Shown here: positions 6,703-22,345 of the stretch, piece by piece | Layout: every line of letters begins with the position of its first letter | How positions within the stretch are numbered: the stretch's first letter is position 1 | Assembly: GCA_005116965.1 (NCBI GenBank) | Contig: SWDG01000007.1 | Span: 179,822 to 212,759 of the forward strand | Origin: Nitrospira sp. | Lineage (GTDB): Bacteria > Nitrospirota > Nitrospiria > Nitrospirales > Nitrospiraceae | DNA length: 32,938 bases | Direction: 5' to 3' | Made by a program: the position numbers and the translations under genes | Notes under the pieces: model-generated | The model's database searches: none | What the model saw: the letters and a program-made list of their open reading frames with translations, nothing else | What the model was told of the DNA's origin: nothing

Positions 6703-9700
6703 ATGACAGACTACCGCCCAGGCCTTTCAGGCCGCATCGCAGCCCTCTTCATCGACAGCAAGCTCACTCCGCTCATCATGTTGGGCGTGTTGTTGCTGGG
6801 CGTATTTGCAGTGGTCGTTACTCCTCGTGAGGAAGAACCGCAGATCGTGGTCCCGATGGCCGATGTCTGGCTGCCGTTTCCCGGCGCATCCGCCAAGGTC
6901 GTCGAAGAGCAACTTACCAAACCGTTTGAGCGCAAGCTCTCCGAGATCAAAGGCGTCGAGTATGTCTACTCGATCTCTCGGCCCGGCGGTGCGCTGATCA
7001 TCGTCCGCTTCTACGTCGGTCAGCCGATGGAACAGAGCCTGGTCGATCTCTACGACAAGTTGATGTCGAATCAAGACCTGTTGCCGCCCGGCGCTGAGCC
7101 TTTTCTTGTCAAGCCCAAGGATGTCAACGACGTGCCGATCGTCACCCTCACGATCTCCAGCGAGCGATACGGAGAATTCGAGCTCCATCGCCTGGCCAAA
7201 CAGGTATTGGAGGAGACCAAGAAGGTGCCCGGTACTTCGGCTGGGTTCATCGTCGGTGGACGGCCTCGCGAACTACGCATCCAGATCGACCCGACCAGAT
7301 TGAAAGCCTATGGACTGACGCCGTTGCAGGTCGCGAACGTGATACGCGGAGAGAATCGGGCGTTGTCGACGGGTCGGTTTGACAGTCGCAACCAAAGTTT
7401 TCTCGTGGAGACCGGCCGCTTCATACGATCGCGTGAAGATCTCGATGCGCTGGTCGTCGGGGTCAGTGAGCAGAGACCTGTGTACCTCCGTCAGGTCGCG
7501 GCGGTGACGGACGGGCCTGCGGAAGCGACGAGTTATGTCTGGTTCGGCCTTGGCGCTTCCAGCGCCCGTGAAACGTCAGACGTGAAACGTGAAGCGGGGC
7601 TCACGAACGACGCTTCACGAGATACGCTCGCCTCGCTGAGCGCGCGAAGCGGGCTTCACGAATTTCCCGCCGTGACGGTTGCCATCGCCAAGCAGGCTGG
7701 CATGAACGCCGTGACGGTTGCCGCGGACGTGATCCGCAAAGTCGAGGACATGAAAGGCGTGACTATTCCATCGGACGTGCGCGTGACGGTCACCCGTGAT
7801 TACGGAGAAACAGCACAAGAGAAGGCGAATGAACTCTTGTGGCATTTGCTCATCGCCGTCGTCGCGGTGGTCGGCTTCCTTGGAGTTGCCTTGGGACCGC
7901 AGCCGGCCCTTGTCGTGTCCATAGCGATCCCCCTCACGCTCGCCTTGACGTTGTTCACCTCAATGATCATCGGTTACACAATCAACCGCGTCACGCTCTT
8001 TGCCCTCATCTTTTCAATCGGTATTCTCGTGGATGACGCGATCGTGGTGGTCGAGAATACCTACCGGCATCTGAAGATGCGTCTCAGGCCCCATGACGAA
8101 GCCTCGATCCATGCCGTCGACGAAGTTGGGAATCCCACGATCCTGGCGACATTTACCGTCATCGCCGCCCTCCTGCCAATGGCGTTCGTGTCCGGGTTAA
8201 TGGGACCCTATATGAGACCGATTCCCGTCAACGCCTCTATCGCCATGTTTTTTTCGTTGTTGGTCGCCTTTGTCGTGATCCCCTGGTTTTGCCGGACTTG
8301 TTACCGTCCAGGAGTCGCGCTATCAGGGATTGACCATGAAGATGACGAGAGCGGACTCACAGCTCGGATCTATCGACGAGTCCTTTCTCCGTTACTGGCC
8401 CATCCGATGCTCGCGTATGCCTTTTTAGGAATTGTTGGACTGTTGCTCGCGGCGTCGACCCTGTTGTTCTACACCCGTCATGTCGTGGTGAAAATGCTCC
8501 CCTTCGACAACAAGAGTGAACTCCAACTGGTGATCGACATGCCGGAAGGGACGACACTTGAAGAGACCGCACAGGTCACGCAGGTGCTAGGACGATACGT
8601 GAAGACGATACCGGAAGTGCGGGATTATCAGGCCTATGTCGGCACGGCGTCGCCTTTTAACTTCAGCGGACTGGTCCGGCACTATTATCTACGGGAGCAA
8701 CCTCATGAGGCCGACATTCAGCTCAATCTGGTCGCGAAACAGGACCGAGCCTCCCAAAGTCATGAGATCGCTCAACGAATTCGCCCACCGGTGCAACAGA
8801 TCGCTCATGAATACGGAGCGAACGTGAAGATTGTCGAAGTGCCGCCGGGGCCGCCTGTGCAATCAGTTCTGGTGGCGGAAGTCTACGGTCCCGATTACGG
8901 CAGGCAACTCGCTGTCGCTCGCGAGATTCGGAGGCTGTTCGAATCCACGCCTGGAGTGGTCGATGTGGATGATTATATTGAGGCTGACCAAGTGAAATAT
9001 GTCTTCACGGTCGATCGGGCGAAAGCGGCCCTCGCCGGTATTCCATCCGAGGACATTGTGAACACGCTGCGTATGGCGCTCCAGGGGGCGAAGGTCGGGC
9101 TGGTCCATATTCCTCAGGAGAAGAGTCCGGTTCACATCGTGCTCCGCCTGCCGCTCGCCGAGCGGACAGGCCTGGAGCATCTGGGCGAGATCGGGCTGCG
9201 GACGAGCACCGGCGGCATGGTCCAATTGTCCGAACTGCTTAAGATAGAACGGACCGTTCAAGACAAGGCGATCTATCACAAGAACCAAAAGCCGGTGGTC
9301 TACGTGGTCGCGGATGTGGGAGGCCCCGGGGCGGAGCAAGCGGAAAGTCCCGTGTACGGTGTTCTCGGAGTGGGAAAAAAACTGGAAGAGTTTCGACCGG
9401 CGGAAGGGTATCAGATCGAGCAGTCCTATGCCTCGCAGCCGTGGTCGGAAGAGAAGATCGCCATGAAGTGGGATGGCGAATGGCACATCACGTATGAAAC
9501 ATTCCGTGACATGGGGATCGCGTTTGCCGTGGCCATGTTGCTGATTTATCTCTTGATCGTCGGGCAGTTCCAATCGTTCATGACTCCGTTGATCATCATG
9601 GCTCCTATCCCGCTCACGCTGATCGGCATTCTGCCAGGCCATTGGCTGACGGGATCGTACTTCACCGCCACGTCCATGATCGGCTTCATCGCGCTCGCCG

Positions 9701-10056
9701 GCATCATCGTGAGAAACTCCATCCTCCTGGTCGATTTCATTCAGCTGCAAGAACGGGCGGGTGTTGCGTTGTCAGAAGCCGTCATCAAGGCGGGCGCGAT
9801 TCGGACGCGTCCCATCGTACTGACTGCGGCGGCATTGATGGTAGGGGCCTTCGTCATCATTCTCGATCCCATCTTCCAAGGGCTGGCTGTCTCGCTGCTC
9901 TTTGGTGTCGGCGCGTCGACATTGCTGACCCTCGTCGTGATTCCGGTGTTGTACTACCATGTGATGGGGAGGCCACGAGGGTTAAGTCCAGAGGGTATTC
10001 ACGCGACGCTGGGAAATGGAGAGATGCCGTCTCTCGCTTCGAACGGTCACGGGTAG
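6703..10056 (+). CDS. RND efflux pump, inner-membrane permease subunit
   Basis: A 1117-residue transporter of the AcrB/HAE or multidrug class, which uses the proton gradient to export hydrophobic compounds through the adaptor. Both halves are present: helix 1 at about residues 20-42, two periplasmic loops, and two groups of membrane helices (about 375-560 and 930-1090). The proton-relay pair D444-D445 is visible in VDDAIVVVEN, and the second-half motif IVRNSILLVDF is at about residues 1002-1012. PFPGASAKVVEEQL and GVEYVYSISRPGG are typical of the first porter domain. About 35 residues (285-319) between SYVWFGLG and FPAVTVAIAK are low in complexity and derive from a DNA repeat. ATG 6703 has no clear ribosome site. 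The substrate is not evident; the heavy-metal (CusA) Met signature was not seen. Confidence 0.93.
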   Translation: MTDYRPGLSGRIAALFIDSKLTPLIMLGVLLLGVFAVVVTPREEEPQIVVPMADVWLPFPGASAKVVEEQLTKPFERKLSEIKGVEYVYSISRPGGALIIVRFYVGQPMEQSLVDLYDKLMSNQDLLPPGAEPFLVKPKDVNDVPIVTLTISSERYGEFELHRLAKQVLEETKKVPGTSAGFIVGGRPRELRIQIDPTRLKAYGLTPLQVANVIRGENRALSTGRFDSRNQSFLVETGRFIRSREDLDALVVGVSEQRPVYLRQVAAVTDGPAEATSYVWFGLGASSARETSDVKREAGLTNDASRDTLASLSARSGLHEFPAVTVAIAKQAGMNAVTVAADVIRKVEDMKGVTIPSDVRVTVTRDYGETAQEKANELLWHLLIAVVAVVGFLGVALGPQPALVVSIAIPLTLALTLFTSMIIGYTINRVTLFALIFSIGILVDDAIVVVENTYRHLKMRLRPHDEASIHAVDEVGNPTILATFTVIAALLPMAFVSGLMGPYMRPIPVNASIAMFFSLLVAFVVIPWFCRTCYRPGVALSGIDHEDDESGLTARIYRRVLSPLLAHPMLAYAFLGIVGLLLAASTLLFYTRHVVVKMLPFDNKSELQLVIDMPEGTTLEETAQVTQVLGRYVKTIPEVRDYQAYVGTASPFNFSGLVRHYYLREQPHEADIQLNLVAKQDRASQSHEIAQRIRPPVQQIAHEYGANVKIVEVPPGPPVQSVLVAEVYGPDYGRQLAVAREIRRLFESTPGVVDVDDYIEADQVKYVFTVDRAKAALAGIPSEDIVNTLRMALQGAKVGLVHIPQEKSPVHIVLRLPLAERTGLEHLGEIGLRTSTGGMVQLSELLKIERTVQDKAIYHKNQKPVVYVVADVGGPGAEQAESPVYGVLGVGKKLEEFRPAEGYQIEQSYASQPWSEEKIAMKWDGEWHITYETFRDMGIAFAVAMLLIYLLIVGQFQSFMTPLIIMAPIPLTLIGILPGHWLTGSYFTATSMIGFIALAGIIVRNSILLVDFIQLQERAGVALSEAVIKAGAIRTRPIVLTAAALMVGAFVIILDPIFQGLAVSLLFGVGASTLLTLVVIPVLYYHVMGRPRGLSPEGIHATLGNGEMPSLASNGHG
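7567..7660. repeat. Repeat-derived insertion inside the RND pump gene
   Basis: CGTGAAACGT occurs twice in direct orientation (7567-7576 and 7581-7590). CGTGAAGCG (7588-7596) is the perfect inverse complement of CGCTTCACG (7611-7619), and GCTTCACG recurs at 7653-7660 where it closes a further small hairpin (GAAGC-GG-GCTTC). The stretch adds whole codons and no stop to the pump reading frame, producing the Ser/Ala/Arg-rich segment at residues about 285-319. Confidence 0.7.
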
Positions 10057-10224
10057 GCCCAGCCTCGTGTAGCGGTTAGAATTTGGAAAGAGGCTGCTGC
10101 GGAGAAGCTAGGGATTGGCCTTGGTTTTGTCAAATACCTTACTAGGAATGAGAGTTGTTTTTCAGGATGAGCGTCCACGCTCTTGCTCGGCCGTGACTCC
10201 AGGCCTAAAATTACAGACTTGCCT

Positions 10225-11787
10225 ATGCCGTCCAAATCCACGAAGAACAGTCCGAGCCGACGAGCTGTGCGTGGGCGAACTAACCCGCGCCCGCACTCTA
10301 GTAAGGTCACGCCGAAGGAAGATCTCTTCGACAAGGCTTTTCGTTTAAGTCCCCACCCGATCGGCATCACGGAACTGAACACCGGGCGCTGTCTCGATAT
10401 CAACGACGCCTGCCTCCAGATCTATGGGTTTCAGCGACACGAGGTGATTGGGAAGACGACGCTGATGTTGGGGATCTGGCCCGATCCTCAAGAGCGAGCC
10501 AAGTTGATCGATCGACTTCGATCGGAAGGTTCGGTCAGAAATGCCGAAGTGTCGATGCAGATGAAGAATAACGACCTGCGTCACTTCCTTATCTCAACCG
10601 ACCTGATCACCATCAACGGAAAGCGATGTCTGCTGACGATCGGCAGCGACATCACCGAACGCAAACAAGCCGAGGGAGCACTGCGCGAGCTCAACGAGCT
10701 GCTCGAACATCGAATCACCGAACGTACGGCGGCGTTATGCACCGTGCAAGCGAGACAGCAGCTCCTGTTGCAATCCACCCCGGTGGTGCTCTATGCGCGC
10801 AGCACCACCGGTGACTTCAGCACGACATTCATCAGCGAGAACGTTGTCGAGCAACTCGGTTATAGCCCGCATGATTTTGTGGAACATTCAGACTTTTGGG
10901 TCACCCGCCTTCATCCCGACGATCGCTCGCAGGTGCTCGCCCATCTCTCAACCGTTCTTGAACAGGAGCGCCGCGTCTATGAATACCGATTCCGTCATCG
11001 GGACGGGAAGTATCGCTGGTTGTACGATGAGGTGCGCATCCTTCACGATCAGGCCGGTGTGCCGGTTGAGCTCATCGGGTTCCAGATCGACGTCACCAGG
11101 CGCAAGCGAGCCGAGGAGGAATTGCATCGGCATCAGACGAAACTGGAGAAACTGACCGCGAAACTGCTCACGGCGCAAGAGCTCGAACGACAACGCATTG
11201 CGCGCGAGCTGCACGACGATATCACGCAACGGCTGGCGAGTCTGGCGCTCGATGCCGGCTCGCTCGAACGATTGTGTACATCCAAGCCGGCCCTGTTGCC
11301 ATACTGTCGGAATGTTCGAGAGGCGGCCGAACGGCTTGCGGATGACGTCCACACCTTCGCCTACCGGCTCCACCCCTCCAGTCTGGAACATCTAGGCCTC
11401 GAAGCGGCGATTCAGGATCATACCCACGAGTTTGCACAGCGCACGGCGCTTGCCGTTCGGTACGTCTCCCGAAACGTGTCGAAAGCGATTCCCATCGAGA
11501 TGGCCACCTGCCTCTATCGTGTGACGCAAGAATCCCTCCAAAATGTGCTGAAGCATGCCGAAGCCTCGATGGTTGTGGTGCGATTGCTTGGGACTTCCAC
11601 AGGAGTCGGGGTCTGTATCCTCGATGATGGGAAAGGATTTGAGGGGAAGGAAGCCCGCAGTCGAGGGCTCGGACTCCTCAGCATGGAAGAGCGGGTTCGT
11701 TTGGCGGAGGGCACGTTCCACATCCGGACGCGCCCAGGTGACGGGACGGAAGTGCATGCATGGGTGCCGCTTCCCGATGTCCGATAG
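10225..11787 (+). CDS. PAS-PAS sensor histidine kinase, NarL/DegS type (HisKA_3)
   Basis: A 520-residue soluble kinase that should phosphorylate the response regulator encoded next. From the ATG at 10225 the order is: a basic N terminus, PAS domain 1 (about 30-150, ending GSDITERKQAE, the usual PAC end), a short coiled linker (about 150-180), PAS domain 2 (about 185-295, with HPDD and YRFRHRDGKYRWLYDE), a HisKA_3 dimerisation helix with the phosphoacceptor H330 in RIARELHDDITQRLA, and a HATPase domain (ESLQNVLKHAEAS, DDGKGFEG, GLGLLSMEERVRL). There is no membrane helix, so it senses an internal signal; no haem or Cys ligand pattern is obvious. TTG 10183 would add 14 residues; I prefer ATG 10225. 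The partner regulator begins about 65 bases after the stop. Confidence 0.9.
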   Translation: MPSKSTKNSPSRRAVRGRTNPRPHSSKVTPKEDLFDKAFRLSPHPIGITELNTGRCLDINDACLQIYGFQRHEVIGKTTLMLGIWPDPQERAKLIDRLRSEGSVRNAEVSMQMKNNDLRHFLISTDLITINGKRCLLTIGSDITERKQAEGALRELNELLEHRITERTAALCTVQARQQLLLQSTPVVLYARSTTGDFSTTFISENVVEQLGYSPHDFVEHSDFWVTRLHPDDRSQVLAHLSTVLEQERRVYEYRFRHRDGKYRWLYDEVRILHDQAGVPVELIGFQIDVTRRKRAEEELHRHQTKLEKLTAKLLTAQELERQRIARELHDDITQRLASLALDAGSLERLCTSKPALLPYCRNVREAAERLADDVHTFAYRLHPSSLEHLGLEAAIQDHTHEFAQRTALAVRYVSRNVSKAIPIEMATCLYRVTQESLQNVLKHAEASMVVVRLLGTSTGVGVCILDDGKGFEGKEARSRGLGLLSMEERVRLAEGTFHIRTRPGDGTEVHAWVPLPDVR

Positions 11788-11798
11788 GAGGTCGCTCC

Positions 11799-11834
11799 AT
11801 GACGCGTGGACTCCGAGCGAGCAACCGATGCTGA
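11799..11834 (+). other. Eleven-codon open frame with a strong ribosome site before the regulator gene
   Basis: AGGAGG at 11786-11791, overlapping the kinase stop, sits seven bases before ATG 11799, the best initiation signal in the area. The frame from this ATG (MTRGLRASNRC) stops at TGA 11832-11834. The response regulator is open in another frame from GTG 11806 and has ATG 11854. Removing one base near 11805 would join the strong start to the regulator frame. It is either a leader peptide or the sign of an indel. Confidence 0.35.
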
Positions 11835-11853
11835 TCCAGATGTGAGCACAACA

Positions 11854-12519
11854 ATGAATGGAGTGACGCCGAGGCCGCGGGTGCTCTTAGCCGACGATCA
11901 CAGCTTGATGCTCGCCGGTCTGCGCCGGCTTGTCGAAGAGACCTGCGAGGTTGTCGGCGCGGTGGAAGACGGCCGGGCACTGGTAGAGGCGGCTCAGCGC
12001 TTGGAGCCCGACCTGATCCTTCTGGATATCAGCATGCCGTTGCTCAACGGTATCGACGCCGCGCGTCAGATCCGGAAGCTCCATCACTCGGCCAAGCTTA
12101 TTTTTCTGACCATGCATACGAGCCCGAGCTATGTGACGGAGGCGTTCCACGTCGGCGCGAGCGGCTACCTCCTGAAGCGGTCGGCGCCCATGGAGCTGCC
12201 GCTGGCGATTGAGGCCGTGCTGAAGGGGCAGCAATATTTGACGCCCTCGATCACCAAGCCGGTGCTTGCGCAGACGATGGAGCGAGAAGAGGCACCGGCG
12301 ATCAAAGGTTCTGTAGTGGAACTCACTCCACGGCAGCGTGAAGTCTTACAGTTGATCGGCGAAGGCAAGGGGACCAAAGCGATCGCCTCTCTGCTCCATG
12401 TGTCCGTGAAAACCATCGAATTTCACAAGACCTGCCTCATGAAGCAACTGAATCTTCACACGACGGGAGAATTGATGCGCTACGCCATCACGCAGGGCCT
12501 CGCGAGTGATCAACTGTAA
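11854..12519 (+). CDS. LuxR/NarL-family response regulator
   Basis: A 221-residue two-domain regulator, the likely partner of the kinase just upstream. The receiver domain starts with RVLLADDHSLM, has the phosphoacceptor D58 in LLDISMP, the Thr of FLTMHTS and the Lys of YLLKRSA. The C-terminal GerE-type helix-turn-helix is complete: LTPRQREVLQLIGEGKGTKA, then VSVKTIEFHKTCLMKQL. It should bind DNA as a dimer when phosphorylated. The start is uncertain. ATG 11854 gives a normal N terminus; the same frame is open back to GTG 11806, and the strong ribosome site at 11786-11791 points to an ATG in another frame. Confidence 0.92.
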   Translation: MNGVTPRPRVLLADDHSLMLAGLRRLVEETCEVVGAVEDGRALVEAAQRLEPDLILLDISMPLLNGIDAARQIRKLHHSAKLIFLTMHTSPSYVTEAFHVGASGYLLKRSAPMELPLAIEAVLKGQQYLTPSITKPVLAQTMEREEAPAIKGSVVELTPRQREVLQLIGEGKGTKAIASLLHVSVKTIEFHKTCLMKQLNLHTTGELMRYAITQGLASDQL

Positions 12520-12542
12520 CCTCTTCCGTAGTCCTATAGACT

Positions 12543-12720
12543 TCGCGATAGAAGATCGTCGACATGGTTGCGCCCAGTAGCTGACGGCGCGGGAACCTTT
12601 CTCTGCCACCACACACACCTCGTTGAGGCTTCGAAAGAGCCGTTCGGCCATCCCATTCTGTCCCGGTGTAAACGGGAGATGAACTCTTAAGTAGCCGATA
12701 GGTTCTCTCCGACTACAGAC
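12543..12720 (-). pseudogene. Relic of an IS3-like transposase (integrase C-terminal part)
   Basis: On the reverse strand, from about 12690 downwards, the translation contains FTPGQNGMAERLFRSLNEV, matching the TPGQNGMAERFxRSLKEE stretch of DDE integrase-type transposases just around the catalytic Glu. The similarity fades after about 25 residues (VVAEKGSRAVSYWAQP) and no start, DDE aspartates or terminal repeats are visible. It is therefore a short leftover of an insertion sequence, not an active element. Confidence 0.6.
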
Positions 12721-12816
12721 CCGGCAAGAATCTCATCGAAAACTAGGTCGCTTACCAGTTCATAAGAAGTCCTATTTGTTCTAGGGTGTCAACTCAAAAC
12801 ACAAGGAGGAGACTCT

Positions 12817-13032
12817 ATGGACACGACAACACTCATTGGTCGAGTCAAGGTCACCTTGGAGCAAGTGGGTACGGACTGTCCGCTGGAAGAAATGATGGAC
12901 CTCTGTCCTGATTTGACGTGGAATCAGATGTTTCTCGCCATCGATGACTTGAGTAGAAGGGGAGAAGTGCAGCTGACGATGGAAGCCGACAGGACATACA
13001 GGGTACAGGTCCGTCGTTCTGAGGCGAGCTAG
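12817..13032 (+). CDS. Small protein, possible winged-helix fold
   Basis: A 71-residue soluble protein with an excellent ribosome site (ACAAGGAGGAGACTCT before ATG). The end, DDLSRRGEVQLTMEADRTYRV, has the shape of the recognition helix plus two-stranded wing of a winged-helix domain, and the earlier LEEMMDLCPDLTWNQMFLAI could supply the preceding helices. This is a pattern-based guess; I do not recognise the family. It lies between the transposase relic and the small Cys-pair protein. Confidence 0.65.
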   Translation: MDTTTLIGRVKVTLEQVGTDCPLEEMMDLCPDLTWNQMFLAIDDLSRRGEVQLTMEADRTYRVQVRRSEAS

Positions 13033-13110
13033 AGCCTGAGTATGTGAGTACAGGAGGAGTTCGCTCATCTACAGGAGTTGTGATAATTCCCAGGGGGAAC
13101 GGAGGTGTCT

Positions 13111-13284
13111 ATGTACATCCAGGTACTTCAGAACACGGAGGAAGAAAGCGGCACAACCATCCTCAACCGTGCATGCGCTCATCAACGTCTTATTGATGAT
13201 ATTTTGACCAGAGGTGGCAAACGCACAGGCAAGGTTCGTTGTCTTGAATGTGGCGCTGAGATCGACGATCCATATCGCGGTTAG
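13111..13284 (+). CDS. Small Cys-pair (zinc-ribbon-like) protein, copy 1
   Basis: A 57-residue protein with GGAGG about nine bases before ATG 13111. The second half has the ordered motif C-A-H-Q-RLIDDILT, then GKRTGKVRCLECGAEIDDPY. The spacing C-x-H ... C-x2-C suggests a single metal site. A clear paralogue lies at 21482-21724, sharing H-x-RLIDD(I/V)LT, GKRTG(K/Q)VRCLECG and DPY. I do not recognise a named family. The conservation of the pattern between two otherwise divergent copies shows it is a real gene. It is followed by the receiver-only regulator 115 bases later. Confidence 0.75.
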   Translation: MYIQVLQNTEEESGTTILNRACAHQRLIDDILTRGGKRTGKVRCLECGAEIDDPYRG

Positions 13285-13399
13285 AGATAACTGACTTGTT
13301 CGAATGAAGCGTTCCTATTCCAATGTCGAATCACCTTCTTCAAGAATAGATTGATGATTCTTCTGAGGAAAGCACCAGATGAACCAATAGGAGTGCCGT

Positions 13400-13864
13400 A
13401 TGTCGATAGGTTCAGTCTCCCATGCGCAGAGTTCCGTCGCTGATCGGACGAAGATAAAATCTATTCGCGTGCTTCTGGTGGACGACCACTTCCTCGTCCG
13501 GCAAGGATTACGGAAGTATCTGAGCCATCATCTCGACATTGAATTGGTGGGTGAGGCTACGGATGGGGAAGAGGCGGTGAAGCTGACAGACCTGCTCAAG
13601 CCTGATGTCGTAGTGATGGACATTCACATGCCGAGAATGAACGGTATCGAAGCGACAGAATCCATCATGCGAAAGCATCCTCACATGCCGGTCATTGGCC
13701 TCTCGTTTTATCTTGGAAATGGGAATCGAGAAGCGTTTTTGGATGCTGGTGCCTGCCTGTTGCTGGAAAAGGGAACGGCGCATAAATATCTGCCCCATGC
13801 GATTTATCAGGTGGTCGGCAAGAGCATCGATGCCAGCTCGCCCGGTCACTGTTCCCTCGCATAG
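13400..13864 (+). CDS. Receiver-only response regulator (NarL-type REC without DNA-binding domain)
   Basis: A 154-residue protein whose residues 22-140 form a complete receiver domain of the NarL type: VLLVDDHFLVRQGL, D74 in VVVMDIHMPRMNGIEA, the Ser of GLSFYL in place of the usual Thr, and the conserved Lys in LLEKGTA. After it there are only about 14 residues and no helix-turn-helix. It may accept phosphate from the kinase at 10225 and act by protein contact or as a phosphate sink, or it may be a regulator that lost its output domain. ATAGGAG lies ahead of ATG 13400. Confidence 0.88.
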   Translation: MSIGSVSHAQSSVADRTKIKSIRVLLVDDHFLVRQGLRKYLSHHLDIELVGEATDGEEAVKLTDLLKPDVVVMDIHMPRMNGIEATESIMRKHPHMPVIGLSFYLGNGNREAFLDAGACLLLEKGTAHKYLPHAIYQVVGKSIDASSPGHCSLA

Positions 13865-13981
13865 CGGAAGAGCCGCCAAAAGGGCACGCACCTTCTCCTC
13901 AAACTCATCAAACCTATCCCCCTGACCTGTCGCTTTCTGCAACAGCGGTAGTTTCACTGCTGGAGCAAGACTCTCCTAAAC

Positions 13982-14233
13982 TCAATCTGTTCCCCGTGTG
14001 GCTAACTTCCTGCAAGTTGTGATCTTTAAATGTGAACTTGCATTGGCTGGGAACCTGCCCTCGCAGCACCAGCTCATCTTGATCTCGATGGCCTTCGCCT
14101 TCTGAGATTTCGAGTGATGTACTCGGAGCCTCCCGTCCTTGAAGTCGGCAGACACCCTCCTCCCATCCGCATCTTCCCGAAGGGAGAAACTGCGCACGAA
14201 GCTTCCGTAGGCGCGTTGGCAATGTGGGCGTGA
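13982..14233 (-). pseudogene. Relic of an Hsp20 small heat-shock protein gene
   Basis: On the reverse strand the frame reads QRAYGSFVRSFSLREDADG followed by RRVSADFKDGRLRVHHSKS and KAKAIEIK. These match, in order, the RAYGSFxRSFxLP strand, the A-x3-n-G-x-L alpha-crystallin signature and the C-terminal I-x-I tail of Hsp20. The frame is stopped at 14234-14236, just before the place where the first part of the alpha-crystallin domain should be, and no N-terminal region is found further out. The gene has therefore lost its 5' half. Confidence 0.7.
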
Positions 14234-14811
14234 TCAGCCGCAGGTCGTTGGAATGCCTGCGCCATATGGCCGGTCTGCTCATCGGCCGGACTGGTGTGGG
14301 GGGGGCGCCAACGCTCGTTGGGTGGTAGTTCGACTGAGATTCGTGTCTCTCATCGTGATCTCCTCACTGAAGTCCTATGCTCTGTCGTCCGCCGACAGAA
14401 CTATGACCGGCTCTCAATGGTCCCCTCCTCTGGATCACTCTCTGAAGGAAGCTGAAAGTTCAGAGGACAGACTGGTCACAATCGCTCAGCTGTGAACATT
14501 TGACCTGGTAGCCGCAGGCCGTTGTTTGCAAAGAGTCAGGCGGCAGATGGGTGCTTCGTCGTGGAGGACGATATTGAGGAGGAAAGTGTGCACGTGCATC
14601 TGTCCTCCTCGTAAACAAAACCTATCTTGCAGACCCCAATATGAAGAAACTGCCTATGAGCAATTGTGACCAGATCGCGGCCGATCCTTTTGCCATACTG
14701 ACTCGTAACGGGAGACTGGGGATGCCTCTGACCCAGACAGTGTGTTTGATCACAATTTGACATGGATGTGGCTGGTAGGCCTAGACACAAATACAAAAAG
14801 GAGAGTTTGCC
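14234..14811. other. Intergenic region with a hairpin and weak promoter-like sequence
   Basis: About 580 bases without a recognisable gene. It includes the inverted repeat at 14576-14610. TTGACA at 14757-14762 could be the -35 box of the gene at 14812, with a poor -10 (TAGACA) about 19 bases later. The long reverse-strand open frame here is antisense to the stress-protein gene and is not convincing. Confidence 0.35.
14576..14610. repeat. Long inverted repeat centred on TGCACGTGCA
   Basis: GAGGAGGA (14576-14583) pairs with TCCTCCTC (14603-14610), and the centre holds the perfect ten-base palindrome TGCACGTGCA (14589-14598). The whole can fold into one hairpin with a small internal mismatch. 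No T run follows, so a terminator is unlikely; it may be a regulator site or an RNA structure. Confidence 0.4.
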
Positions 14812-15354
14812 ATGAGTGAACACAATGCAGTCGTCGCCATTTATAACACCCACACGGAAGCCGAGAGCTCCATTAAAGAGCTCAAGCGAGCGGCCTTCGA
14901 CATCACGAAGCTCTCGATCGTGGGGAAGGATTACCATACCGACGAACATGTGGTGGGCTATTACAACACCGGCGATCGTATGAAGTACTGGGGTACGCTC
15001 GGCGCATTCTGGGGCAGCCTCTGGGGCATGCTGCTGGGCGCGGGGTTCTTTGCCATCCCGGGTATCGGCCCGGTGTTGATCGCTGGGCCTCTCCTTGGGT
15101 GGATGCTCGGCGCGCTCGAAGGAGCGGTGGTGACCGGAGGCATGACGGCGATTGGGGCAGCGCTCTATAGCGTGGGGATCCCTAAAGATAGCGTCATCAA
15201 GTACGAGATGGCGTTGAAATCCAACAAGTTTATCTTGGTGGCCCATGGCATGGCGGACGAGGTGGCGCAGGCTCGAAAGATTCTTCACACGACCCACCCA
15301 CACACACTAGACACACATACGATGGTAGCTGAGGAGGCAGGTGCGGGCGCCTAG
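14812..15354 (+). CDS. YflT/general-stress-17M-like protein with glycine-rich membrane segment
   Basis: A 180-residue protein. Residues 1-50 (AVVAIYNTHTEAESSIKELK, ITKLSIVGKD) match the YflT-type domain found in heat- and general-stress proteins. Residues 60-125 are a glycine-rich hydrophobic stretch with two likely membrane helices (FWGSLWGMLLGAGFF, then GPVLIAGPLLGWMLGALEG), and the C-terminal part (FILVAHGMADEVAQARKIL) reads as a second copy of the small alpha/beta domain. Proteins of this shape are common next to stress regulators, but their molecular role is not known. AAAAAGGAGAG precedes the ATG. The last 20 residues are rich in His and Thr and probably unstructured. Confidence 0.8.
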   Translation: MSEHNAVVAIYNTHTEAESSIKELKRAAFDITKLSIVGKDYHTDEHVVGYYNTGDRMKYWGTLGAFWGSLWGMLLGAGFFAIPGIGPVLIAGPLLGWMLGALEGAVVTGGMTAIGAALYSVGIPKDSVIKYEMALKSNKFILVAHGMADEVAQARKILHTTHPHTLDTHTMVAEEAGAGA

Positions 15355-15771
15355 CAGCTCTGCTGTACTGTGTAAGAGTGACCAGACTGCATCAGTTCAG
15401 GTCCGCGTGCCGGTCCTGAGTCTCCTGAATACCAAGCGCGTCATCATCGACGTCACCTTGGGGTCGAGCACGCATCTCTGGCTCCCTGAGCGAAATGGTC
15501 GATGGACTGGCAACGGAGGATCCCTTCGTAACCCAGACAGGCCCCATTCCGAGAACAGGAAAGGGCCGTGAGCGAAGTTGTCCAGCATTGACCCGGTGAG
15601 GGGCTCGGGCTCAGGCCATGAAAGAAAGGAGGGTGTGTTCATGAGAGGGCTTGTGTGGATGAGGTCCTGATGGCGGTGTATTCCGAGCACGATCGCGATT
15701 AGGCTCGCACACAAGAGGCGATGTGAAACATCCGGAAGTACGTATTCGAACCCAATAACCAAGGAGATGTG
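15355..15771. other. Intergenic region with a strong ribosome site before a nine-codon frame
   Basis: About 415 bases. The only notable item is AAAGGAGGG at 15626-15634 before ATG 15641, which opens MRGLVWMRS and stops at TGA 15668-15670. The signal is as good as those of true genes here, so a small gene may have decayed or been hit by an indel. No other gene is recognised. Confidence 0.35.
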
Positions 15772-15800
15772 ATGACCACAATAAAACCATCATTCTACAA

Positions 15801-16775
15801 GTGGTCGGGGTGGGCGTGGGCCTATTCCTGGCCGTCCCTGGCAGCGTCCTGCCAGCCCATGCCGATGCCCGACTCACGGCGGATGCCAAGGTGGAGCGGA
15901 TCGGACAACCATTGACTGACGAAGAAATGCGCGCCGTCTCGTTTTCCGCTGGTCGAATCCTCAAACATGTGGATCAAGCGATCCGGGCGATCGCAAAGCA
16001 GGATAAAAATACTGCGCTCACGCAAATCGACAAGGGGCTGGCCCTGGCCGGGATCATTGAGCAGTCACTCCCGATGACCACGGTCAAGTCCACGATCAAA
16101 GCGGGAAAACTGCAGTATTCAGATGAGGACAAAATCAAGTTGTTGACGGTACCGATCTATCAGGAGCTGGATACGGTCTCCATTCTAGAGCCGGTGGTCG
16201 CTGCAAAAAAAGCGGCTGCGACAAAAGCCGGCACGGCTGCCAAGGAGGTTCCGGCCAAGGGACACGCCGAAGCGGTGGGGGAGAGCTATATCAGCATTAC
16301 GCTCAATGTGGCGGATGCCAAGGCTTATCTAGAGACAGCGAAAGACGCGCTTGCGAAGGGACACTTCGACGCGGCGTCCAAGGATTTGGCGGCCATTCAG
16401 GAGAAGGTCACCGTCATGTATGCGGGAGAGCGGGGACCCTTGGCTGAGGCTCGAGAAGACCTGGCGCTGGCGAACCTCGATATAGACCAGGGGTATCGCA
16501 AGGAGGCGCAAGTGGCGCTGACCGATGCGTCGGAATCGTTGAGTCGGTATGACAAATCCGGGGGAAAGCATCAGGCGGAGGTGAAGACGATGCAGGCGGA
16601 AATCGCGGCCCTGAGCACGGAGTTAGATAAGTCAAACGAGGGGTCGATGGAAAAGGCTAAGGGGAAGATCATGGGTTGGTGGGATCGCGTGAAGGGTTGG
16701 GAGCATCGGCATTTCTACTTTACGGAAAGTCCCACGAGGGGGTTAGAAAAAGGGGGGCCGTACGTGAACAGGTAG
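15801..16775 (+). CDS. YfdX-family exported protein, apparently frameshifted at its start
   Basis: The 324-residue frame fits the YfdX family: helical, Lys/Ala-rich, periplasmic, with repeated AK-rich helices (about residues 45-125 and 165-290). GTG 15801 gives VGVGVGLFLAVPGSVLPAHA, a signal peptide lacking its charged start. The real start appears to be ATG 15772, which has an ideal AAGGAG just ahead but lies in another frame; adding one A to the AAAA run at 15783-15786 would give MTTIKTIILQ joined to this signal peptide, with cleavage after AHA. Thus either the gene has a one-base deletion or the assembly lost one A. Family members are linked to acid and envelope stress; function is not defined. 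It is read alone. Confidence 0.78.
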   Translation: MVGVGVGLFLAVPGSVLPAHADARLTADAKVERIGQPLTDEEMRAVSFSAGRILKHVDQAIRAIAKQDKNTALTQIDKGLALAGIIEQSLPMTTVKSTIKAGKLQYSDEDKIKLLTVPIYQELDTVSILEPVVAAKKAAATKAGTAAKEVPAKGHAEAVGESYISITLNVADAKAYLETAKDALAKGHFDAASKDLAAIQEKVTVMYAGERGPLAEAREDLALANLDIDQGYRKEAQVALTDASESLSRYDKSGGKHQAEVKTMQAEIAALSTELDKSNEGSMEKAKGKIMGWWDRVKGWEHRHFYFTESPTRGLEKGGPYVNR

Positions 16776-17183
16776 CTCGAAGTTGAATTCACGTGATCTG
16801 GGTAACCGATTGCGACGCTAATGTGTGTGAATGTGTCCGGTCGCTCTATTTCCGACGCAGATAAGGAGCGTGCATCATGCGGTCGTGGACCATGTATAAC
16901 ACACCGAATCGTGATGCACGCTGGCGGCCAACGAGGTCGGTGATCCAGCCCTGTATCTCCGGATAAGGACAGGGTCACTATTGACGCGACAGTCAGGGAC
17001 GAGGGTCTGCCAGACTCCCACTGCGCGAACGGAAGAAGGCCTTGAATCTGGTTGTCTAGAGTTGCCCCGGTGCGCTGGTGGCGGAGTATCCCGGCACCTC
17101 TCTTCGAACGGCCCACGGTCCATCACAGCTCGCGCGCCCCTGTGTCGTCGCCCAACACGTTGAGTCAGCAAAGGATGTCCGTC
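16776..17183. other. Intergenic region before the alcohol dehydrogenase
   Basis: About 400 bases. It contains the small open frame listed at 16877-16966. The frame of the dehydrogenase remains open upstream to 17052, but that extension (MSRVAPVRWW...) has no ribosome site and is not part of the family, so I treat it as non-coding. Confidence 0.35.
16877..16966 (+). CDS. Possible 29-residue small protein
   Basis: ATG 16877 is preceded by AAGGAG at 16863-16868, an eight-base spacing. The frame, MRSWTMYNTPNRDARWRP and so on to TAA 16964-16966, is basic and not hydrophobic. I do not recognise it. The good ribosome site is the only support; it could be a chance match or the relic of a longer gene. 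Confidence 0.2.
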   Translation: MRSWTMYNTPNRDARWRPTRSVIQPCISG

Positions 17184-18224
17184 ATGAACGCACTGGTGTA
17201 CCTCGGTCCGGCGAAACAGGCCCTCGAAGGGCGGCCAAAACCAGAAATCTTGGCGGTCACGGACGCGATCGTCAAGATAACTCGGACGACAATTTGTGGC
17301 ACGGATCTGCACATCCTCAAGGGTGACGTCCCGAGTTGTCATCCAGGACGCATTCTAGGTCATGAGGGCGTGGGCATCGTCGACCAAGTCGGGCCGGCTG
17401 TCACGGTGTTCAAGCCTGGAGACCGCGTCTTGATCTCCTGCATCAGCTCCTGTGGAAACTGCGTGTATTGCCGGAAGCTCATGTACTCGCACTGCACCAC
17501 CGGCGGCTGGATACTCGGCAACAGCATCGATGGCACGCAGGCCGAGTGGGTCCGAATTCCTCACGCCAATTCAAGCCTGTATGGCATTCCAAGTGATGCT
17601 GACGAAGAGGCGATGGTCATGCTCAGCGACATTCTGCCGACCGGCTTCGAATGTGGCGTGCTCAACGGCAGGGTTCAGCCGGGAAGCACGGTGGCGATCG
17701 TCGGGGCAGGGCCGATTGGACTCGCCGCGCTGCTCACGTCCAAGTTCTACTCCCCGGCCGAGATTATCGTGATCGATCTCGACGACAATCGTCTTGAAGT
17801 GGCCACGCGCTTCGGTGCCACGGTGGCCATCAACAGCGCCGACGGGAAGGCGAAGGAGACGGTGATGAAGATGACCGGCGATCGCGGGGTCGACACGGCG
17901 ATCGAGGCCGTGGGCATTCCGACCACCTTCGAGCTGTGCGAGCAAATTATCGCGCCTGGCGGCACTATCGCCAACATCGGGGTGCATGGAATGAAGGTGG
18001 CGCTTCATCTCGAACAGCTCTGGGACCGTAACATGACCATCACCACGCGGTTGGTCGACACCGTCAGCACTCCGATGCTGCTCAACGTTCTGCGGTCTCG
18101 CAAAATCGACCCCAAGCTCCTGATTAGTCATCGGTTCAGGTTTGATCACATTCTCGACGCCTACGAGACCTTCGCACATGCTGCCAGCACGCGAGCGCTC
18201 AAAGTGCTTATCGAGGTGGAGTGA
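17184..18224 (+). CDS. Zinc-dependent alcohol dehydrogenase (MDR family)
   Basis: A 346-residue NAD(P)-dependent medium-chain dehydrogenase. Catalytic zinc ligands are visible as C38 (TICGTDLH) and H60-E61 (GHEGVG). The structural zinc site is complete: C90, C93, C96 and C104 in CGNCVYCRKLMYSHC. The nucleotide-binding turn is GAGPIGLAAL at about residue 174, followed by IVIDLDDNRLEVA, where the acidic residue at the end of the second strand favours NAD. The closest group is the alcohol/sorbitol/formaldehyde dehydrogenases; ADHs of this kind are frequent in stress or low-oxygen gene clusters. ATG 17184 is preferred over ATG 17175 because AAGG lies nine bases ahead. The substrate is not evident. 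Confidence 0.93.
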   Translation: MNALVYLGPAKQALEGRPKPEILAVTDAIVKITRTTICGTDLHILKGDVPSCHPGRILGHEGVGIVDQVGPAVTVFKPGDRVLISCISSCGNCVYCRKLMYSHCTTGGWILGNSIDGTQAEWVRIPHANSSLYGIPSDADEEAMVMLSDILPTGFECGVLNGRVQPGSTVAIVGAGPIGLAALLTSKFYSPAEIIVIDLDDNRLEVATRFGATVAINSADGKAKETVMKMTGDRGVDTAIEAVGIPTTFELCEQIIAPGGTIANIGVHGMKVALHLEQLWDRNMTITTRLVDTVSTPMLLNVLRSRKIDPKLLISHRFRFDHILDAYETFAHAASTRALKVLIEVE

Positions 18225-18565
18225 TATGACCAGTCGAAGGGCGAATCAACGGTGGATGCGAACAGCGCGTAGCTTGGGTTCAATGAACCAGATTGAGGTC
18301 ACGACCATGCTCGATATGAGGCAGGGCCTGAGGAAGCAGCAGCCGACAACACCCTGCGGACGGATCGCTTCGTGCTCACACCGTGTAAGTGATTGGAGTG
18401 CAACTCCCTGCTCGAGAAGACACGTCCACCGACATGATGGGGGGCTAGAGACCCCAACGGTCGGGTATCGCGAATCAGGATATCCTGGCCGTTACGGCGA
18501 GTCTGAGACAGTGAGTTACTGAAAGAGACACATTCAACTCATGCGAGGAACAAGGAGAACAGCCC
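18225..18565. other. Intergenic region after the dehydrogenase
   Basis: About 340 bases. An open frame runs from ATG 18226 to 18522, immediately after the dehydrogenase stop, but its product is Arg/Ser-rich with no pattern that I recognise and it has no clear ribosome site of its own beyond GGTGGAG. I regard it as unproven. Confidence 0.3.
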
Positions 18566-18802
18566 ATGGACAGACCAGTCATTGCCGCCAAGCAACCCGC
18601 AGTCCTCACGTTGGATCCTGGCACCTACCACTGGTGTCAATGCGGACGCTCGAAGACCCAACCATTTTGCGATGGGTCCCATAAAGGAACGGAGTTCACG
18701 CCGGTCGAGTTTTCGTTGGCGGAGCAAAAACACGTCGCGCTCTGTCAGTGCAAGCAGACCCAGACCCCGCCATTCTGCGACGGCACACACAAGACACTCT
18801 GA
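18566..18802 (+). CDS. Tandem CDGSH iron-sulphur domain protein
   Basis: A 78-residue protein made of two CDGSH zinc-finger-type modules, each of which binds one [2Fe-2S] cluster through three Cys and one His. Module 1 is CQCGRSKTQPFCDGSH and module 2 is CQCKQTQTPPFCDGTH, both with all ligands. Two-module forms are common in bacteria (mitoNEET-like, class 7 type) and are thought to take part in redox sensing or cluster transfer. ACAAGGAGAAC is just upstream of the ATG. It stands alone between the dehydrogenase and the ABC ATPase. Confidence 0.93.
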   Translation: MDRPVIAAKQPAVLTLDPGTYHWCQCGRSKTQPFCDGSHKGTEFTPVEFSLAEQKHVALCQCKQTQTPPFCDGTHKTL

Positions 18803-18874
18803 GTTCGTGAACCGGCTCGCGTGAAGGCCACAGATGTGTGCGTCCGATCCGAGTGAGCGGAGAGGAGGCGAAGC

Positions 18875-18925
18875 ATGAGAGCAACACAAGCAGCACGTAT
18901 GGCAGCCGCGTTGATCTGGTGCTAG
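18875..18925 (+). other. Sixteen-codon open frame with a strong ribosome site
   Basis: GGAGAGGAGG at 18860-18868 precedes ATG 18875; the frame reads MRATQAARMAAALIWC and stops at TAG 18923-18925, 37 bases before the ABC ATPase. It could be a leader peptide, the start of a decayed gene or chance. The ATPase itself has no ribosome site this good. Confidence 0.2.
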
Positions 18926-18962
18926 TCGGTGGGAGAGGGGATGACGTGAGGCCTCACAGGAT

Positions 18963-19769
18963 ATGACTCGCGCGCTTGCCATCACAGACGCTGTCGGACA
19001 AGGACCGGTAATCCGTCTGGTGAACGTCGCGAAGTCGTTTGGCGAGCAGGCCGTCTTAAAAGGAGTGAACCTGCAGATCCCACGGGGAAAGGTCACCACG
19101 ATCATTGGCCCCAGCGGAGGAGGAAAGAGCGTTTTGTTGAAACACATGATTGGACTCATCCAGCCCGATCGGGGGCAGGTCCTCGTCGATGACGTCGATA
19201 TCACGCCATTGGGAGGACAGGCGCTCAATGAGGTGCGGAAGAAATTTGCCATGCTCTTCCAGAGCGCGGCACTCTTCGATTCGATGACGGTGTTTGACAA
19301 TGTCGCCTTCCCCTTGCGTGAGAAAATGCAACTCAACGAACCAGAAATCAGCCAGCACGTCACGGACATACTGGCAGCCGTGGAGTTGACCGGAATGGGA
19401 TACAAGTTTCCGGCAGAATTGAGCGGAGGGATGAAAAAGCGGGCAGGCTTGGCGCGGGCGTTGGTGATAAATCCAGCGATCATCCTGTTTGACGAGCCGA
19501 CAACCGGACTGGATCCACTCTTAGCGAGACAGGTCCATACGCTCATTGCAGGAATGCAGCAGCGGTTTGGATTCACCGCAGTGATCGTGAGCCACGATAT
19601 CCCTGGGGTCTTCGGCATTTCCGACTATGTGGCGATGCTCTGGGATGGGGTAATTGAGGAGGTGGCCGCAACCAAGGACTTTCAGCGAACCACCAACGCC
19701 ATCGCCCGCACGTTTCTGAATGCAGCTGCCGGACCAGAAATGGTGCCCGTAGAAACGACCCACGGCTAA
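18963..19769 (+). CDS. MlaF-like ABC ATPase (phospholipid transport type), orphan
   Basis: A 268-residue ATPase with Walker A GPSGGGKS (residue 49 on), Q-loop LFQSAALFDSMTV, signature LSGGMKKRAGLARAL (153 on), Walker B ILFDEPTTGLDP with D177 and E178, and H211 in the H-loop. The GPSGGGKSVLLKHMIGL and LSGGMKKR(A/V)GLARA patterns are typical of MlaF/Ttg2A, the motor for lipid movement between inner and outer membrane. The usual partners (MlaE permease, MlaD) are not next to it; the flanks hold a CDGSH gene and an MscS channel. The partner may be elsewhere on the genome. The start ATG has only a poor ribosome site. Confidence 0.85.
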   Translation: MTRALAITDAVGQGPVIRLVNVAKSFGEQAVLKGVNLQIPRGKVTTIIGPSGGGKSVLLKHMIGLIQPDRGQVLVDDVDITPLGGQALNEVRKKFAMLFQSAALFDSMTVFDNVAFPLREKMQLNEPEISQHVTDILAAVELTGMGYKFPAELSGGMKKRAGLARALVINPAIILFDEPTTGLDPLLARQVHTLIAGMQQRFGFTAVIVSHDIPGVFGISDYVAMLWDGVIEEVAATKDFQRTTNAIARTFLNAAAGPEMVPVETTHG

Positions 19770-20159
19770 ACCGTTCATACTTCAAGAGCCGGTTCCTTAG
19801 ATAACTGCGGAAATGGATCATCTCGATATGACGAACGAAGAGACCCGATGGCGACCGCCACGGAGCGGCGACCTCTGGACGACGGGGCGCCAGTCACAAG
19901 AGATGGTGACAGATGTAGGCGGCAAATTGTGCAGAAGGTCTATGAACGCTCTGCGTAGCGGGGTCGCCGGAAGGGTTCTGTGTGAGATGACTGGCTGGCC
20001 GGAGGACATCGTCATGAACGGATCACCGGAGGCCAACGCGCGGAGGGTCACGCGATCGGGTCATGCTACACACAAGACCGCTAGGGCAGGATCCATGTGC
20101 GAATCTCTTCTTGTGATCACTCAGAGGTCACCAATAGCTTGGGAAAATTGGAATTCGAG
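19770..20159. other. Intergenic region between ABC ATPase and MscS gene
   Basis: About 390 bases. A 116-codon frame runs from ATG 19813 into the MscS start, but the product has no recognisable pattern and the frame has no ribosome site; a second frame from 19848 stops after about 36 codons. A weak AACCG/CGGTT hairpin lies just after the ATPase stop. No firm gene. Confidence 0.3.
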
Positions 20160-21215
20160 ATGAAGCAAGTCCTTGGTGCCGAGCAGATTTGGTTTGTGTT
20201 CGGTGGCGCCTTGCTCGTGGCCGTACTTCTTGGACTCGTCGGACACGCTGTCCTGTTCCGTGTAGCGGAACGGATCGTAAGGAACCCACGCACCACGCTT
20301 CAGGCGTCACTGCTTCGTCACTCGCGAAGCTCTGTTCGCGTCATCCTTTTACTGATGGCGATCCTTTTGGTGCTGCCCGTGGTACCAGTCGAGCCAGACT
20401 ACGTTGAAGCCATCCGACACGTCATCGGGGTTGGGACGATTGCCTCAGTGGTGTGGTTGGCCATTGCGCTTACTCAGGTCTTCGAAGATGTCCTCTCCGC
20501 GAGGCAGGGAACGGAACAGTGGGACGACCATGCCACGAGACAGGTCCAGACCCGTGTCCGCCTGCTTCGCCGAATCGCCCTTGGTCTCGTCGGCGTGGTC
20601 GCGCTGGCGGCGATCTTAATGACCTTCTCCACTGTGCAACATCTGGGTGCGAGTCTGCTCGCGTCAGCCGGCATCATCGGCCTCGTAGCCGGAATTGCGG
20701 CACGGCCGGTTCTTTCGAATCTCATTGCTGGGGTACAGATTGCGCTGACACAACCCATTCGGATCGGCGACGTGGTCGTGGTCGAAGGGGAGTGGGGGAA
20801 AATCGAAGAGATCTACACCACCTATGTGGTGGTAAAGATCTGGGACCTGCGCAGGCTGGTGCTCCCGCTCTCGTATTTTATTGAGCGGCCGTTCCAGAAT
20901 TGGACTCGCCGCACAGACAACCTCCTAGCGACCGTCTTTCTGTATGCGGACTACACCGTACCCGTAGAAGTTGTCCGACAAGAGCTCCACCGTGTGCTGC
21001 TCGCCTCCAACGTGTGGGACGGTACCGTCTGGCGTTTACAAGTCACCAAGATGACAGCCCAAACGGTCGAACTCCGGGCAATGATCAGCGCAACAAATTC
21101 TGACAACGCGTGGGATCTTCAATGCCATGTCCGCGAAAAACTGATTGAGTTTATGCAGACACGCATTCCCGGCAGTCTTCCGAAGGCACGGGAGGTAGTT
21201 CAGGGAACCGTGTAG
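20160..21215 (+). CDS. MscS-family mechanosensitive channel
   Basis: A 351-residue channel with four membrane helices (about residues 10-32, 55-75, 85-110 and 140-165) followed by the pore helix and the cytoplasmic beta domain. The diagnostic block is LASAGIIGLVAGIAARPVLS, then NLIAGVQIALTQPIRIGDVV, VEGEWGKIEEI and LPLSYFIERPFQNWTR. It should open on osmotic downshock or membrane tension. ATG 20160 is used because it starts directly before helix 1; GTG 20097 would add 21 residues without support. The channel is the YkuT/YbdG-like short form. Confidence 0.9.
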   Translation: MKQVLGAEQIWFVFGGALLVAVLLGLVGHAVLFRVAERIVRNPRTTLQASLLRHSRSSVRVILLLMAILLVLPVVPVEPDYVEAIRHVIGVGTIASVVWLAIALTQVFEDVLSARQGTEQWDDHATRQVQTRVRLLRRIALGLVGVVALAAILMTFSTVQHLGASLLASAGIIGLVAGIAARPVLSNLIAGVQIALTQPIRIGDVVVVEGEWGKIEEIYTTYVVVKIWDLRRLVLPLSYFIERPFQNWTRRTDNLLATVFLYADYTVPVEVVRQELHRVLLASNVWDGTVWRLQVTKMTAQTVELRAMISATNSDNAWDLQCHVREKLIEFMQTRIPGSLPKAREVVQGTV

Positions 21216-21481
21216 AGTTTGGAGCAATGGCGAGTTGACATGATGGGGTCAGGGCGTGGGCCAGTTTGAATTCAGCAACGTTCCCGCATGTCTATTGCGC
21301 ACTTGATATTTATAGAGGCTGGGCTCAAGTAAGAGATGTTCACTATTGACCAGTCTTTGTTTGACAAAAATGCGATCATGTCTTCTCAAAATACCCCACT
21401 CTCGAACTGAGAGGTTCCGAGGGCTTGTCTTGGTGTGTATCGGACGAGGGGGATCTCAGGAAATCTGGCCGGAGGAATTCA

Positions 21482-21724
21482 ATGGATAAGTCATTCTTTC
21501 CCTTGGAAGGCGGAGATATGACGGTGCGATATACGGAGGTGCCCATGAAGCCTCACATGGAAACTCAGACACTTGAGTTCTCGGGGGACGCCGCCCCGGC
21601 GACGACCTGCGTGCACGGGCGGCTCATCGATGATGTTCTGACAAAGATGGGGAAGCGGACCGGTCAGGTTCGCTGTCTCGAATGCGGCACGATCTTTACT
21701 GACCCCTACCAGGGAAATAAGTAG
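21482..21724 (+). CDS. Small Cys-pair (zinc-ribbon-like) protein, copy 2
   Basis: An 80-residue protein with CCGGAGGAATTC directly before ATG 21482. Its second half, C-V-H-G-RLIDDVLT, KMGKRTGQVRCLECG and FTDPYQG, is a clear paralogue of the protein at 13111-13284; the first half (MDKSFFPLEGGDMTVRY) is different. The conserved C-x-H and C-x2-C pairs suggest one bound metal. No known family comes to mind. It follows the MscS gene by about 265 bases and is probably transcribed alone. Confidence 0.8.
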   Translation: MDKSFFPLEGGDMTVRYTEVPMKPHMETQTLEFSGDAAPATTCVHGRLIDDVLTKMGKRTGQVRCLECGTIFTDPYQGNK

Positions 21725-22164
21725 TGAGCTGGTTAGGCGAGAACCTGATTGACAACCTTCCATCATGGGCGATCCCAGTGCGAAGTCTAACTGTACACCC
21801 AGTAATCTTTGATGACCCTTCCCTGGGCGTCAAATGATCATCCCCAGGCTGGCGCCTTTTGCGACAAGGGTGTTTCTGGTGCTGTCGCAACTTGCCCCTC
21901 AGCGCCGTCAGCTTCTCTCATGACAGAACGCCTGTAAGTTCTGATTTTTATATGTTCCTCCAGGAGGTTGCCGCGATGCCTTTCTGTGGCAGTCCCTTTG
22001 CAATCTCTCTAAGAGTTCGAAAGTAACAACATGTCGTTCCGATTCGGCATACATCATCGCAGCATTGCGAGGGTATGGCGTCTGCCACCCGCCGGGACGG
22101 TTTTCCTCGTGGGGACGATCAGACGATCACAAGTCTGTGGATGGCCAGGAGTCAAGGAACAACC
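21725..22164. other. Intergenic region with an 8-base-arm inverted repeat
   Basis: About 440 bases without a recognised gene. TTGCGACA (21859-21866) and TGTCGCAA (21883-21890) form a perfect inverted repeat with a 16-base spacer; there is no T run, so it may be an operator or relic end of a mobile element. Confidence 0.35.
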
Positions 22165-22290
22165 TTCCTGAGTTGGAGCTAGTCTACACGATGCCATTGA
22201 AGCCACTAGCGACAGCAACCTCAAATGTGCGGCTGTTGAAAGAGCGTATCGCTACGGCGCAAGCGGCATCGAATACGAACCATGGTCAAT
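22165..22290 (+). pseudogene. Decayed second copy of the outer-membrane-factor 5' region
   Basis: The DNA here is clearly related to the early part of the intact gene that begins at 22391, about 359 bases further on. Aligned words include ACGATGCCATT and GTGCGGCTGTTGAAAGAGCG against GTACGGTTGTTGAGAGAACG. The translation gives NVRLLKERIATAQAASNT, the counterpart of NVRLLRERIAAAQSAANT in the intact gene. A one-base shift, later compensated, separates the two frames in the middle. The rest of the gene is absent. Confidence 0.75.
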
Positions 22291-22345
22291 CTGATACATC
22301 TTGCGGAGTGGTCAATCTGGTATCTGTTGGATTCCCAGCTCAGTG

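Follow-up and report, generated by a model that had tools for sequence, protein, structure and literature searches.

A stretch of Nitrospira sp. DNA of 32,938 nucleotides (the window) carries two members of a family of small Cys/His proteins, a real family of a familiar kind that is undescribed in the libraries searched; its core is under purifying selection, and its genes recur beside a two-component pair and a gene for a small predicted winged-helix protein. We give about even odds (roughly 0.5) to the reading that this protein, probably a zinc ribbon, is a lineage-specific accessory regulator of transcription within a stress-related two-component module. The main interest lies in the recurring pair of ribbon and winged-helix genes, whose products, each below 90 residues, are encoded by small genes without a model in the libraries searched. 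Nitrospira are major nitrite oxidizers, and some oxidize ammonia too; to our knowledge, little is known of their stress regulation. A family found by profile in 34 of the 40 sampled genomes of the genus, and tied to a two-component pair as well as to another small putative regulator that is likewise undescribed, offers a concrete handle on this regulation.

The two copies and their family

Copy 1 is encoded on the plus strand at 13111–13284 (57 aa; ATG at 13111, stop codon at 13282–13284), with a GGAGGTG ribosome site at 13101–13107, 3 nt 5' of the ATG. Copy 2 lies on the same strand within an open reading frame of 80 codons (21482–21724), and its main product is probably the 59-aa protein encoded by 21545–21724. 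We favor this start because its ribosome site (GGAGGTG, 21535–21541), the 3-nt spacing to ATG 21545 and the 21-codon interval up to the first Cys all equal those of copy 1; family members repeatedly start 21 codons ahead of this Cys. A longer form from ATG 21482 is possible, as the candidate N-terminal extension (21482–21544) has its own start with GGAGG at 21471–21475; about a dozen members, among them copy 2, have an ATG with a GGAGG-like site that precedes the Cys by 42 codons, and the segment between the two ATGs has a pN/pS of 0.59, calculated from few data. The earlier reading made from the sequence alone (the sequence-only reading) was thus right about the strong ribosome sites of both copies and about the 80-codon frame, but the homologous product is probably the shorter one.

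The motifs that this reading had described as common to the two proteins, C-x-H-x-RLIDD-[IV]-LT, GKRTG-[KQ]-VRCLECG and DPY, are exact. When the copies were aligned, 30 of 57 residues were identical (25 of 36 in the core and 5 of 21 in the tail), and copy 2 used as a query retrieved copy 1 from its own genome with an E value of 4e-15. Because the core is moreover conserved in dozens of genomes, the likeness is not due to chance, and the proposed duplicated family is borne out. That the first halves differ was likewise correctly noted, and the difference reflects a fast-evolving tail together with a probably over-long start assumed for copy 2. Over 19 pairs of related copies, pN/pS was 0.20 in the core and 0.64 in the tail of 21 residues. 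Among 42 diverse members, C22, H24, R26, G40, C44 and C47 never changed, and the alignment revealed no further conserved Cys or His column. The fixed Cys and His positions are therefore four, all invariant across the family (Cys22, His24, Cys44 and Cys47 in copy 1), and the conservation of C-x-H-x19-C-x2-C is, at the level of sequence, the signature of a folded core.

Profile searches of Pfam, NCBIfam, PHROGs and PADLOC gave no family match above cut-off, in agreement with the earlier failure to recognize a described family, and literature searches found no report on this one. The weak matches among the 42 members were recurrently to zinc ribbons at E values of 0.001–0.1, namely Zn_ribbon_4 (24 members), Zn_ribbon_5 (21), the MJ0042 ribbon (17) and the zinc-binding TFIIB ribbon (8). 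The gathering cut-offs of Zn_ribbon_4, Zn_ribbon_5 and Zn_Ribbon_TF were not reached, the best member having an E value of 0.001 and copy 1 scoring 13.4 bits against the Zn_ribbon_4 cut-off of 30.3. Since the ribosomal and TFIIB ribbon matches all stay below cut-off, no characterized family of the sort that would remove the novelty came up. A match of copy 2 to HutD (E 0.0014; 19.2 versus 25 bits) was obtained with the over-long start and is dismissed as chance.

An AlphaFold2 model of the ribbon protein (pLDDT 64 overall, about 83 in the core) has a disordered segment at residues 1–16 and three predicted strands at 28–32, 38–44 and 50–52. Foldseek and VIA-align searches with this model gave no significant fold match, which carries little weight for so small a domain. 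As the sequence pattern, present in all 42 members as two knuckles with four Cys/His ligands, agrees with the predicted strands and the weak profile matches, the family is probably a zinc beta-ribbon, and we infer that it probably holds one zinc ion. It resembles the zinc beta-ribbon superfamily (Zn_ribbon_4/5, PF08271 and NCBIfam MJ0042) in its second knuckle, C-x2-C-G, in size and in its predicted three-stranded core, whereas its first knuckle is C-x-H in place of the superfamily's C-x2-C.

Outside the genus, the profile detected the family in 21 genomes from other genera of Nitrospiraceae and in 4 genomes from other families of the same order; two borderline cases came from other parts of the phylum. 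When peptide patterns, taken from copy 1 only, were scanned against 84,980 species, 35 Nitrospira or Nitrospirae loci and two chance matches were recovered; an Oxalobacter match (L067) lacks the C-x-H and was rejected. As far as tested, the family is lineage-bound and almost confined to Nitrospiraceae, and the doubt about function that a lack of homologues would have raised does not arise, as they are present in dozens of genomes. Each genome carries from none to five copies. Counterparts of copy 1 are 93–96% identical in six genomes, and copy 2 has counterparts of its own, one in genome G011 (82%) and another at locus L037, so that the two copies are old paralogues. Frameshifted or decayed copies were seen at L105, L092, L115:12450–12776 and L134, which suggests that duplication and loss are frequent.

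Two-component genes, a predicted winged-helix partner and the MscS channel

The plus-strand gene order around copy 1 is a PAS histidine kinase of the HisKA_3 type (10183–11787), a LuxR/NarL-type response regulator (11806–12519), the predicted winged-helix protein (12817–13032), the ribbon protein and a receiver-only response regulator (13400–13864). The kinase clusters with L082:4349–6313 (PAS, HisKA_3 and HATPase_c); the LuxR/NarL-type regulator has a GerE domain (G000:C7:192143–192307), and its representative L111:6104–6748 combines Response_reg with GerE. The receiver-only gene, 3' of copy 1 as described earlier, matches PF00072 only, and about ten further loci have a gene resembling it in the vicinity of the family. 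A response regulator was present within 1.5 kb upstream of 29 of 67 ribbon genes, compared with 0–4 of about 50 in the outer bins, and in 27 of 63 cases a PAS kinase gene lay between −1.5 and −4 kb, with outer bins near zero; the 3.7-Mb genome of the window contains only 16 GerE domains. Other loci have Hsp20, DUF2934, PepSY, CBS and flavodoxin proteins as neighbors, together with clusters named by reading sequences as acetate kinase, phosphoketolase and USP-like; in other genera the neighbors are DUF2238, CBS, SufBD, Hsp20 and flavodoxin genes.

The survey of copies and neighbors proposed in the sequence-only reading revealed that the commonest neighbor is one it had not mentioned. The 71-aa winged-helix gene directly 5' of copy 1 represents the family's most conserved neighbor. 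In a search of the genomes, 35 of 68 ribbon genes (29 genomes) had it on their own strand no more than 500 nt upstream, and in most pairs the gap is 77–193 nt. Its family members have 70–90 aa and the signature C-P-x-L-T-W-N-Q-x-F-x2-[IV]-D-x-L-S-R, and no Pfam family covers the 71-aa protein. The AlphaFold2 model (pLDDT 88) comprises helices at 3–17, 23–29 and 35–47 and strands at 51–55 and 61–65, i.e., three helices with a beta wing, and it aligns with MarR, Zur and Z-alpha domains with Z scores of about 10. The 71-aa protein is hence a predicted DNA-binding protein. Its modeled fold is like that of MarR/Zur-type and Z-alpha proteins at 8–20% sequence identity; it differs from them in being a single bare domain without dimerization helices or effector domain. 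The winged-helix family was found in Nitrospiraceae only, plus a few sister-family genomes when a single sequence was the query. By this genomic evidence, the ribbon protein would act where a two-component system delivers its output, next to a predicted DNA-binding fold.

Roughly one member in two, copy 2 among them, has no winged-helix neighbor, and the neighbors in other genera differ, so the ribbon protein must in places be independent of this partner. No fusion of the two was seen among the loci examined, and neither a sigma-70-like promoter nor a terminator was found on the plus strand from 12480 to 13687. A dyad upstream of the winged-helix gene, present at 8 of 37 loci, was rejected as an operator, because in close relatives it extends into the region of the ribosome site. 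In the winged-helix family, the recognition helix is preceded by a Cys that hardly ever varies, and Nitrospiraceae genomes each carry 2–10 copies; in the genome of the window, another copy (C6:121820) likewise lies just behind a LuxR-type domain (C6:121316–121483). In Nitrospira sp. RSF12, the winged-helix gene at L037:3656–3919 has one in-frame stop, and the ribbon gene that follows is undamaged.

An MscS-type channel gene (20097–21215, PF00924) precedes copy 2, and here too the gene order had been given correctly; the functional link drawn from it is not supported, as the association is not conserved. At the other loci examined, no MscS gene lies beside a ribbon member, and at L037 of the close relative RSF12 the window segments 9154–13958 and 21225–21763 are nearly joined, with copy 2 about 1 kb from copy 1 and directly behind the receiver-only regulator. 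Missing at this site is a 7.3-kb block of stress-type genes (window 13958–21225) encoding YflT, YfdX, a zinc dehydrogenase, CDGSH, an ABC ATPase and MscS. Because the channel gene is absent there and beside other members, it gives no hint of function, and the L037 arrangement puts copy 2 in the same island as copy 1. The regulator context behind the idea of a stress-linked adaptor or regulator is supported.

Possible roles of the ribbon protein

In the mechanism we favor, the PAS kinase and the LuxR-type regulator would sense stress and raise transcription of an operon from which, as we infer, the winged-helix and ribbon proteins are produced together. The ribbon protein would consist of a disordered tail followed by a three-stranded beta core, in which C-x-H and C-x2-C hold one zinc ion, and this zinc core would be its contact surface, either for a partner (the winged-helix protein, the response regulator or RNA polymerase) or for nucleic acid. 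Such contact might tune, in one direction or the other, the output for nearby stress genes. In a stricter version, the winged helix and the ribbon would be the two subunits of a single transcription factor, dividing between them the winged-helix plus zinc-ribbon arrangement; such a factor, two-component-controlled and specific to Nitrospiraceae, is speculative, and we regard it as unlikely.

A minority possibility is that the protein acts on other proteins rather than in transcription, serving under stress as a chaperone, as a redox sensor or as an adaptor. Its Cys and His residues would hold zinc while reduced, and oxidation would free the zinc and expose the disordered tail, which would then bind clients or a protease; a modeled tail adjoining a small putative metal core and the Hsp20, flavodoxin, CBS and CDGSH genes among the neighbors are consistent with this scheme. 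Ruc of Mycobacterium tuberculosis is a zinc-binding protein with a disordered region. This protein (Rv0991c) is reported to be a redox-regulated chaperone that acts likewise (PMC7448276); it shares small size and a stress link with the ribbon protein, a likeness by description only. The tail is, however, poorly conserved (pN/pS 0.64), and the commonest neighbor encodes a predicted DNA-binding fold rather than a chaperone.

For copy 2 by itself, we considered that it may be a degenerating duplicate without function. The winged-helix gene is missing upstream, related copies at L092 and L134 look decayed, and DNA identity to the L037 counterpart is 73%, compared with 91–92% in the flanks. Yet the frame is open, the four ligands are complete, the ribosome site is strong, and the core differs from that of L119 by 14.5 synonymous changes in 27 sites versus 8.5 non-synonymous changes in 87, which makes degeneration rather improbable.

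It is more doubtful still that the protein binds ribosomes or RNA, lowering translation or protecting ribosomes under stress. This role is suggested by an Arg/Lys-rich core (KRTGKVR) and by weak S27e matches in 7 of 42 members (best E 0.005), and S27e fragments were all that the PDB profile search returned (eS27, E 0.1). These matches lie far under the cut-offs (13.1 bits for copy 2 against 70) and are confined to the second C-x2-C knuckle, where a K-V-R-C-x2-C-G-x3-x2-P segment aligns with eS27 and the remainder is uncovered; moreover, copy number and presence vary, with some genomes of the genus lacking the ribbon. Least probable is an antitoxin-like protein, anti-activator or mobile-element accessory gene spreading with its winged-helix partner, as the variable copy number, paralogues, decayed copies and putative small two-gene operon would allow. 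As far as tested, the family is restricted to a single lineage; no toxin-like partner was seen, PADLOC offered no match, and tblastn against viral contigs and plasmids found no relatives.

Two minor observations concern gene arrangement. Downstream of copy 2, window positions 22167–22337 hold a decayed fragment that resembles the beginning of the TolC-type gene immediately after it (22391–23782; tblastn E 3e-7). At L148–L155, which belong to a different genus, genes for DUF2238 membrane proteins lie between two distinct ribbon copies 2–4 kb apart, joined in several of these loci by SufBD and ABC genes.
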